DNA of 64,000 nt from Frigidibacter sp. ROC022. GTDB lineage: Bacteria; Pseudomonadota; Alphaproteobacteria; Rhodobacterales; Rhodobacteraceae. The translations under genes were made by a program, and so were the position numbers. The notes beneath the pieces were generated by a model that was not told the origin of the DNA, made no database searches, and saw nothing but the letters and a program-made list of their open reading frames with translations. Position 1 is the stretch's first letter, and each line of letters opens with the position of its first letter. The stretch covers positions 1-64,000 of the forward strand of contig NZ_JANQDU010000005.1 in NCBI RefSeq assembly GCF_024723735.1, written 5' to 3'. This document shows positions 44,217 through 46,057 of the stretch, piece after piece.

Positions 44217-44759
44217 CTATTTGGCCGGACCGACCATCATCACCATCTGACGGCCTTCGACCTTGGGCATCGATTCGACCTTGCCGATCTCTGCGATGTC
44301 GCGGGCGACCCGTTCCAGCAATTCGCGACCCAGTTCCATATGCGCCATCTCGCGGCCACGGAAGCGCAGGGTGACCTTCACCTTGTCGCCGGCCTCGAGA
44401 AACTTGACCACCGAGCGCATCTTGACCTCGTAGTCATGGGTATCGGTTCCCGGGCGGAACTTGATCTCCTTGATCTCGATGGTCTTCTGCTTCTTCTTGG
44501 CCTCGGCCTCTTTCTTCTGGGTCTCGTACTTGAATTTGCCGAAATCCATGATCTTGCAGACCGGCGGCACCGCGTTCGGGCTGATCTCGACCAGATCCAG
44601 CCCGACCTCCTGGGCCATCATCATGGCGCGGGACGGGCTGACGACACCGACATTCTCGCCGTCGGCACCGATCAGGCGGATTTCATGAGCACGGATTCGG
44701 TCGTTGACCTTGGGGCCGGTATCGCGCACCGGCGGGGCGTTGTGAGGTCTGCGGGCTAT
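44217..44759 (-). CDS. infC: Translation initiation factor IF-3
   Basis: A 180-residue IF-3. The N-terminal domain ([21 protein letters not shown]), the basic linker and the C-terminal domain ([18 protein letters not shown]) are complete. The likely start is ATA at 44759, giving the usual alphaproteobacterial opening ARRPHNAPP before [15 protein letters not shown] lies 8 bases upstream. The first standard start codon in frame is a GTG 10 codons later, inside the conserved part. IF-3 discriminates against non-standard start codons, so such a start allows autoregulation, as with ATT in E. coli infC. Confidence 0.94.
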
Positions 44760-44998: not shown

Positions 44999-46057
44999 AT
45001 GAATAGAAACGGATTGATTGCAGCCCTGATCGCGGCCGCCGTCGTGGTCGGGGGCGCCTGGTACATGAAGGCGCAGAAGGACGCCGAGATCGCCGCCGCC
45101 GCGGAAGAGAAGGCCGCGGCGGAAGCCAAGGCCGCCGAGGAAGCCGCCGCGGCCGAGAAAGCAGCTGCCGAGGCCAAGGCCGCCGAAGAGGCCGCCGCTG
45201 CCGAGAAGGCCGCTGCGGAAGCCAAGGCCGCAGAAGAGGCGAAAGCCGCCGAGGAAGCCGCCGCCGCCGAGGCCAAGGCTGCCGAAGAGGCTGCGGCCGC
45301 CGAGAAGGCCGCGGAAGAAGCCGCCGCCGCCGAGAAGGCCGCCGCTGAAGCCAAGGCCGCCGAAGAGGCGAAAGCCGCCGAGGAAGCCGCTGCTGCCGAG
45401 AAAGCGGCTGCCGAAGAGAAGGCGGCCGAGGAAGCTGCCGCCGGCGAGGCGGATGAGGAAAAGGCCGCCGAGGAAGCCAAGGCGGCCGAGGAAGCCGCCG
45501 CCGCCAAGAAAGCCGCGGAAGATGCTGCCGCGGCCGAGAAGGCTGCGGCCGAGGCGAAGGCTGCCGAGGAAGCCGCCGCTGCCGAGAAGGCCGCCGAAGA
45601 GGCTGCCGCCGCCGAGCAGGCCGCGGCCGAGGCCAAGGCTGCGGAAGAAGCGGCCGCCAAGGCTGCGGAAGAGGCTGCTGCCAAGGCCGCCGAGGAAGCC
45701 GCTGCGAAGGCCGCGGAAGAAGCCGCCGCGAAGGCTGCCGAAGAGGCCGCTGCCGCTGCGAAAGCGGCAGAGGAAGCCGCCGCGGCCGAGAATGCCGCTG
45801 CCGATGCCAAGGCTGCAGAAGAAGCCGAAGCTGCCGCCAAGGCCGCCGAGGCGGCTGCCGCCGAGGCGCTGCCGGACCCTGCGGTGGTCTTCACCAAGGA
45901 AGGCTTCAACCTGGAAGACGCTCAGAAGCTGATCGATGCCTCCTCGCTGTCGGACAGCGACAAGGAGATGCTGAAGAAGGCGCTGGAGCGGACCGAGAAC
46001 CTGCCGTCGCTGCTGCCCGACGTTCTGACGGCGGCGCGGGAGAAACTGGGGCTCTGA
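44999..46057 (+). CDS. Membrane-anchored Ala/Glu/Lys repeat protein
   Basis: A 352-residue protein in three parts. Residues 1-25 hold one membrane helix (GLIAALIAAAVVVGGAWYM). Residues about 30-288 are an almost pure Ala/Glu/Lys repeat (units such as AAEEAAAAEKAAAEAK), expected to form a very long single helix or coiled coil, as in TolA domain II. Residues 289-352 form a small conserved-looking end (PDPAVVFTKEGFNLEDAQKL). TolA-like architecture suggests a periplasm-spanning arm, but the end domain is not recognisably TolA and no tol/pal genes are near. Stands alone with its own terminator. Confidence 0.75.
   Translation: MNRNGLIAALIAAAVVVGGAWYMKAQKDAEIAAAAEEKAAAEAKAAEEAAAAEKAAAEAKAAEEAAAAEKAAAEAKAAEEAKAAEEAAAAEAKAAEEAAAAEKAAEEAAAAEKAAAEAKAAEEAKAAEEAAAAEKAAAEEKAAEEAAAGEADEEKAAEEAKAAEEAAAAKKAAEDAAAAEKAAAEAKAAEEAAAAEKAAEEAAAAEQAAAEAKAAEEAAAKAAEEAAAKAAEEAAAKAAEEAAAKAAEEAAAAAKAAEEAAAAENAAADAKAAEEAEAAAKAAEAAAAEALPDPAVVFTKEGFNLEDAQKLIDASSLSDSDKEMLKKALERTENLPSLLPDVLTAAREKLGL

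Follow-up and report, generated by a model that had tools for sequence, protein, structure and literature searches.

The Gene and Its Protein Product

The window, i.e., the whole stretch of 64,000 nucleotides that was analyzed from contig NZ_JANQDU010000005.1 of Frigidibacter sp. ROC022 (Rhodobacteraceae), harbors at positions 44999−46057 (+ strand) an open reading frame for an anchored stalk protein of 352 residues. The choice of the ATG at 44999 as the start is backed by the N-termini of related proteins, which are of the MNR, MNK, MKN or MRN type. Residues about 5−22 (45011−45064, +) have a mean hydropathy of 2.23 and flank charges of +2 before and −1 after the segment, and are predicted to form a signal anchor or transmembrane helix with the N-terminus on the inside. 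The stalk (residues 28−290; 45080−45868, +) comprises 263 residues with a net charge of −43, of which 158 are Ala, 68 Glu and 29 Lys (255 of 263, 97%); the eight exceptions are D28, I31, G149, D152, D175, Q207, N265 and D269. The last 62 residues (291−352; 45869−46054, +) constitute a C-terminal domain, which profile matches show to be conserved in Rhodobacteraceae and which is predicted to consist of three helices. An earlier account of this DNA (here called the sequence-only reading) described a membrane anchor, about 260 residues of nearly pure Ala/Glu/Lys repeat and a small end domain, in agreement with these data except that the end domain was given 64 rather than 62 residues.

Judged from its relatives, in which domain, frame and position are kept, the frame at 44999−46057 is a real coding sequence. 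A reverse-strand open reading frame of 376 residues (44779−45909, −) overlaps the gene and is taken to be a putative by-product of composition. Promoter and terminator scans at positions 44600−46300 found nothing.

Genomic Neighborhood

The gene is flanked on one side by infC, which encodes translation initiation factor IF-3 (44217−44729, −; identified with tblastn and annotated alike in Falsirhodobacter) and is transcribed divergently. On the other side lies a convergent gene for a ferredoxin-NADP reductase-like protein (fpr; 46164−47000, −), for which the best NCBIfam match is ferredoxin--NADP(+) reductase, under the cut-off of the model. The position of infC is conserved in relatives and that of fpr often so. 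Among 22 named loci, tblastn located infC at 21, on the opposite strand 1.1−1.9 kb ahead of the domain (the sole exception, L062, begins just 465 bases ahead of the domain), and fpr at 19, from 0.1 to about 3.5 kb past the domain. When 119 loci were considered, most of them covered over about 3 kb, infC was found at 114, fpr at 87 and at least one of the two at 118. The only annotated record found, a Falsirhodobacter orthologue named "hypothetical protein", sits directly between infC and the ferredoxin-NADP reductase. This conserved position signals vertical inheritance and does not indicate a functional partner. The window protein displays each of the features that define the family, i.e., the anchor, the acidic stalk, the C-terminal domain and the infC/fpr locus.

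The one locus of the 119 that shows neither infC nor fpr in the stretch covered (L010, genome G152) encodes a member of 500 residues in which a Thr/Glu/Asp/Ser-rich repeat (23% Ala) replaces the Ala-dominated stalk. Two other observations were made near the gene in the window. The next gene beyond infC (43389−44066, +) encodes a VPLPA-CTERM sorting domain (TIGR03370, above the cut-off), and an open reading frame of 453 residues (47057−48418, −) combines PAPS reductase (residues 78−247) with DUF934 (residues 350−449), both above the Pfam cut-offs. As these are two adjacent genes in Falsirhodobacter, the latter frame looks like a cysH−DUF934 fusion.

Distribution of the End Domain

No Pfam model matches the full window protein and its NCBIfam matches all lie below the cut-off, as do all matches of the end domain alone to Pfam or NCBIfam; a comparison of 30 end domains of family members with Pfam yielded only scattered weak matches. 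The description of the domain as not recognized therefore holds, in the sense that no Pfam or NCBIfam model reaches its cut-off. The profile search with the end domain alone that the sequence-only reading had proposed revealed a family found throughout Rhodobacteraceae rather than a lone oddity. In a sample of 295 genomes of the window's own family, one per genus, the window end domain alone matches 124 genomes at E ≤ 0.1, while a profile built from 30 domains matches 184 of the 295 genera at E ≤ 0.001. Residues K35, P49 and L63 of the domain are kept in at least 90% of the 30 aligned members, and 72 of 112 complete members end in LGL, LGM or MGL.

Wider draws gave matches within the same family. 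The profile matches 5 of 385 genomes in a class-wide draw and 23 of 398 in a phylum-wide draw, and all 5 and all 23, respectively, belong to the window's own family; at most 15−16 first-look candidates were scored per genome in these two scans, so that absence of the domain outside Rhodobacteraceae is not proven by them. In a draw labeled "order", 121 of 149 genomes match and, among the matches listed, all are from the window's own family. The 22 named relatives carry labels such as Rhodobacteraceae, Rhodobacterales or genera such as Thalassovita, Tateyamaria, Shimia, Cognatishimia and Primorskyibacter, which we take to be placed in Rhodobacteraceae, and from these labels we infer that the family of the matched genomes is Rhodobacteraceae. 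Vertical inheritance of a so far unnamed family that is specific to the Rhodobacteraceae lineage is the best explanation of these data.

In genome G003 two members, of 258 and 134 residues, lie near each other (L025 and L052; G003:C1:1070944−1071734), and a second end-domain match was seen in several other genomes. A literature search recognized no description of the family, where papers that give locus tags only would escape such a search. The envelope lipoprotein DalA of Rhodobacterales, as it is presented in PMC10470522, is a different protein.

Architecture and Topology of the Family

The search yielded 120 distinct members, of which 8 were dropped because they were incomplete or had no clear start. 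Each of the 112 complete members analyzed begins with an anchor or an export signal, continues with an acidic stalk and carries the domain at or near the C-terminus. The stalk is 47−434 residues long (median 180, a 9-fold spread), has an Ala content of 16−69% (median 39%) and a negative net charge in every member, and contains little Gly and Pro (together 4.6% in the median). Among the 112 stalks, that of the window has the highest Lys/Arg content (11.4%) and the tenth-highest Ala content, and ranks 94th from the shortest in length. It is by its extreme Lys content that the window species stands apart; the trait of the family is an acidic, usually Ala-rich stalk.

The sequence-only reading had allowed the rod to point into the periplasm or the cytoplasm. 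In all 112 members the anchor is preceded by a flank of more positive charge than the one that follows it. In addition, two members at the infC/fpr locus display what, by eye, appear to be export signals of other types, i.e., a lipobox-like LAAC in L141 and a cleavable signal peptide of the AxA type in L132, which places stalk and domain of these variants outside the cytoplasm. From the flank charges and the two signal-peptide variants, stalk and end domain are most likely periplasmic. An anchored stalk that faces the cytoplasm has nothing specific in its favor beyond K24 and K27, which come after the transmembrane helix of the window protein, and given the charge asymmetry and the two variants we consider it exceedingly improbable.

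Variation in Length and Loss of the Domain or the Gene

Repeat length, which the sequence-only reading had suggested comparing among strains, was compared across species within genera and is not fixed. Stalks span 130−284 residues in g56 (7 species), 100−160 in g295 (6) and 127−143 in g211 (5), where the genera were picked after the lengths of the open frames were known, g56 as the most variable one. From the open frame alone, g570 (332−348) and g572 (409 and 409) look stable.

Presence of the domain also differs within a single genus, as no end-domain match was found in G740 of g56. Of 111 domain-negative genomes, the first 30 by handle were probed. For the 26 of these in which infC was found, open reading frames of at least 80 residues in the 1.5 kb upstream of infC were judged by eye. 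An anchored Ala/acidic protein devoid of the end domain was seen near infC at five of the 26 loci (L152, L153, L156, L158 and L159; in L158 it lies one gene further from infC), while no anchored Ala/acidic protein was seen within this 1.5 kb at the other 21. The domain-less proteins of L153 and L159 have similar ends (KKLLDIGN and KKLLNAN, respectively). Because there are loci that lack the domain or the gene beside infC, both the gene and the domain can be dispensed with.

Sequence Pattern and Codon Usage of the Stalk

The residues of the window stalk are ordered. Glu is found at position i+4 of Lys in 27 of 29 cases and at i+3 in 22 of 29, as compared to 7.3 and 7.4, respectively, expected from 500 shuffles, while the reverse orientation, from Glu to Lys at i+4, occurs 5 times (7.2 expected). 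Residue identity peaks at lags of 5−6, 10−11, 16, 26 and 32, i.e., with a period of about 5.3 residues. A coiled coil was considered and rejected, as there is no heptad and the period is not 3.5. At the level of DNA, codon identity at lags 1−60 does not depart from that of codon shuffles by more than |z| = 2.6; there is no excess at the repeat lags, and a recent tandem amplification was rejected on these grounds. Together, the shuffles show a residue pattern that is ordered while the underlying DNA repeat is degenerate. This much of the sequence-only reading is confirmed, i.e., that the amino-acid pattern is kept while codons vary. Its further suggestion that such variation reflects selection goes less far, since a variety of synonymous codons is not in itself proof that the pattern is under selection, and codon use is itself shifted.

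The Ala codon GCT is more common in the stalk than in neighboring genes in 63 of 65 members (median 17% vs 4%), a comparison limited to members in which stalk and neighbors each provide at least 25 Ala codons; the neighbors were infC, fpr, cysH and cysI where present. A pool of 80 members showed more GCT, GGT and GTT in both stalk and domain than in infC, fpr and cysH; in the same set cysI was partly raised as well, and GCA and ACA were raised in the stalks. Codon usage was also scored against a reference set from the window's genome, composed of 26 genes judged by eye as those of ribosomal proteins and tuf, plus groEL. The window stalk scores 0.277 per codon toward this set, while the 27 reference genes, left out one at a time, score from −0.029 to 0.219 (L12 0.17, GroEL 0.157). 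With only Ala and Glu codons considered, the stalk scores 0.327, a value that 7 of the 27 reference genes reach; on this scale a LysM protein scores 0.142 and TolA 0.102, and fusA and rpoB fall below zero. The end domain of the window protein scores weakly over all codons (0.053). The LysM protein (53790−56006, +) has 738 residues; its long middle part is rich in Ala, Pro and Glu, and a LysM domain (PF01476, E 2.3e-7) lies at the C-terminus. GCT makes up 7% of its Ala codons as compared to 17% in the window stalk.

The codon shift may reflect expression or relaxed selection. The score of the window stalk and the raised GCT, GGT and GTT in the pooled end domains speak for expression, whereas fusA and rpoB, which lack the shift, the weak score of the window's end domain, the partial rise in cysI and the raised GCA and ACA in stalks speak against it, so that high expression of the stalk protein is no more than a possibility as far as codons are concerned. 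Relaxed selection would fit an explanation in which the stalk is a low-complexity by-product, i.e., a GC-rich repeat that drifts neutrally within a dispensable gene, with a length and composition that serve no function. The rapid change in length, the loss of gene or domain in some genomes and the raised GCA and ACA in stalks are consistent with such drift. However, the sign of the charge and the frame are kept in 112 members, the Lys−Glu spacing in the window is far from random, and domain and locus are conserved across Rhodobacteraceae, which makes the by-product explanation quite improbable.

Predicted Structure and Reach of the Stalk

The full-length AlphaFold2 model, calculated for the window protein only, displays helices at residues 3−148 and 154−289 and a separate helical end domain. 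The helices are divided by a low-confidence break at residues 149−153 (45443−45457, +; pLDDT <50, no helix), the site of the only Gly in the stalk. With a pTM of 0.32 the model does not place the parts relative to each other. It should also be noted that AlphaFold tends to predict helix for low-complexity stretches of Ala, Glu and Lys regardless of their actual conformation. The predicted structure agrees with the sequence-only reading of an anchor, a very long helix and a small end domain, where the helix would have one break.

When modeled alone, the end domain is predicted to be a three-helix bundle with no strand (pLDDT 91.2, pTM 0.72). Searches of solved structures with this domain returned generic three-helix bundles only; the best Foldseek E value was 1.9 and the best VIA Z score was 6.4, a value of medium strength according to the note supplied with the tool. 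Comparison with GA or protein A-like domains gave an E value of 0.033 in a profile search of the PDB (9mlu, a fibronectin-binding protein), a Foldseek E value of 2.6 and a VIA Z score of 5.4. The end domain resembles the paramyxovirus P X domain, FbaA and protein A domains (VIA Z 6.4, 5.4 and up to 4.6, respectively) in size and in the order of the three helices, but with identities of mostly 12−20% this is a common arrangement with no sign of common descent. A profile match to 8eoz (E 1.5e-6) was discarded, as it covers 17 positions, has no stretch that passes alone and bears a name like that of a designed protein.

A straight stalk helix at 0.15 nm per residue would be 39 nm long, with halves of about 19 and 20 nm. 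The width of the periplasm is given as 27.3 ± 1.8 nm for parent cells of the related Rhodobacter sphaeroides (PMC10470753), and widths of around 10−25 nm are quoted for E. coli (PMC5668860). If the window species is similar to R. sphaeroides, a straight rod perpendicular to the membrane would not fit. The sequence-only reading of a rod reaching tens of nanometers is thus retained as far as a long predicted helix is concerned, while a rigid reach is doubtful considering the break at the Gly, the 39 nm as compared to 27.3 nm and stalk lengths of 47−434 residues. A rigid ruler of fixed length is unlikely in view of the 9-fold range, the 130−284 residues within one genus and a length exceeding that of the periplasm. 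Variation within genera argues against a ruler; it favors a slack tether, a stalk that is kinked or tilted, or a brush.

Comparison with TolA, SAH Domains and Lpp

The E. coli TolA middle region is rich in Ala, Lys and Glu, and TolA, like the window family, has an N-terminal anchor, a long middle part and a small C-terminal domain, and is periplasmic, as the window family most likely is too. As features of TolA, PMC12204202 describes a Ser-x-His-x-Leu-x-Ser motif within the anchor, binding of the C-terminal domain through β-strand addition, and a tol-pal context; helical domain II, as found in gammaproteobacterial TolA, is according to the same source not the hallmark it was once thought to be. 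The window family shares the N-terminal anchor, while the motif S-x(1-4)-H-x(1-4)-L is found within residues 1−40 in none of the 112 members and His is absent from the anchor of the window protein. Its end domain is predicted to be all-α with no strand, the stalk is acidic and the context is infC and fpr rather than a tol-pal operon.

The genome of the window harbors its own tol-pal row on contig C15, composed of tolQ, tolR, a gene at the position of tolA, tolB and a pal-like gene. Here, tolQ and tolB are above the cut-off and tolR is at 126.6 bits (cut-off 127.3); pal was assigned from its place in the row together with a match to the OmpA family, and TolA from its place only, where the latter shows, by eye, S-x3-H-L close to its start. 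There are two TolQ-like genes in the genome, on contigs C15 and C1, and the window is on contig C17. The TolA-position gene itself has no NCBIfam or Pfam match, so that a missing TolA/TonB match of the window protein carries no weight by itself. Whether the end domain is that of TolA or of another known family, the point on which the sequence-only reading had said it could fail, was checked and no such identity was found among Pfam and NCBIfam models or solved structures. Membership in TolA was rejected considering the missing motor motif, the predicted all-helical domain and the separate tol-pal row. A force transducer similar to TolA or TonB, driven by a TolQR/ExbBD motor, would share the overall layout and, with domain II of TolA being helical (PMC12204202), a helical middle part. 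Yet, with the motif at 0 of 112, no His in the anchor, TolQ-like genes on other contigs, a predicted all-helical end domain and a tolQRAB-pal row elsewhere, this mode of action is very improbable.

SAH (ER/K) domains offer another comparison. Like these, the window stalk has a long Glu/Lys run with opposite charges from i to i+4 and no heptad, and is predicted to be a single helix, with one break. In contrast to SAH domains, 60% of the window stalk is Ala, the orientation is from Lys to Glu instead of from Glu to Lys, and Lys/Arg reaches at least 5% in only 12 of the 112 family members. Braun lipoprotein, Lpp, for which PMC10470753 states that there is no known homologue in alphaproteobacteria, is similar in that the window family may be a helical periplasmic spacer. 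In terms of description the family differs from Lpp in being anchored in the inner membrane, much longer, variable in length and equipped with a globular end domain.

Functional Implications

The reading we favor, to which we assign somewhat less than an even chance, is that of an anchored periplasmic stalk that acts as a passive tether or spacer and presents a small helical adaptor domain to a partner in the envelope. The N-terminal helix would anchor the protein in the inner membrane, its N-terminus facing the cytoplasm, and the long, acidic and mostly α-helical stalk, presumably held in the window species by salt bridges from Lys to Glu (i, i+3/i+4), would extend into the periplasm with the three-helix adaptor domain at its C-terminal end. 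By virtue of the stalk, the adaptor would be able to extend to a partner at the peptidoglycan or the outer membrane and keep hold of it, passively, i.e., without being driven by TolQR. This reading builds on the observed anatomy, family and locus and on a predicted topology, helix and fold, from which we infer the tethering and the partner. The shared three-part layout, the flank charges in 112 of 112 members and infC and/or fpr at 118 of 119 loci speak for it, while the free length of the stalk (47−434 residues), which is odd for a spacer across a fixed gap, the absence of gene or domain from some genomes, and the Thr/Asp/Ser/Gly-rich stalks of many members, which may be partly disordered, speak against it.

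The main rival to a passive tether is a polyanionic brush, where the acidic, Ala-rich stalk is the working part and the domain only caps or locates it. The periplasmic side of the inner membrane would be coated by many copies, which together make up a hydrated helical layer of negative charge with roles in spacing, crowding or osmotic buffering, or chaperone-like shielding. Such a layer would be in line with stalks that are acidic in all 112 members, low in Gly and Pro (median 4.6%) and free in length, with the five infC-adjacent loci that keep anchor and stalk without the domain and, as a weak hint of abundance, with stalk and domain codons that lean partly toward those of ribosomal genes. 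However, the domain marks 184 of 295 genera and keeps K35, P49 and L63, more than a mere cap needs, and the codon shift is not seen in fusA and rpoB, for which good expression is likewise expected. We regard the brush as rather unlikely, though with a real chance of being correct.

Returning to the passive tether, the width of the periplasm and the manner in which the envelope is tethered without Lpp in alphaproteobacteria are described as not settled in PMC10470753. A bolder version of the tether, which we consider speculative and unlikely, is that Rhodobacteraceae, lacking a known Lpp homologue, have a spacer or tether of their own between the inner membrane and the cell wall or outer membrane, composed of an abundant, lineage-specific helical stalk of free length that is anchored in the inner membrane and a new three-helix tip that binds the wall or the outer membrane.

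The window protein is real, ordered and conserved, and belongs to a lineage-specific family without a name, with a layout of a known kind. The family marks most of the sampled Rhodobacteraceae genera (184 of 295), yet no Pfam or NCBIfam model reaches its cut-off, and anchored Ala/Glu/Lys-rich proteins of Rhodobacteraceae should not be named TolA from composition. The family probably helps to organize the cell envelope, and it offers a concrete, deletable candidate for envelope tethering without Lpp.
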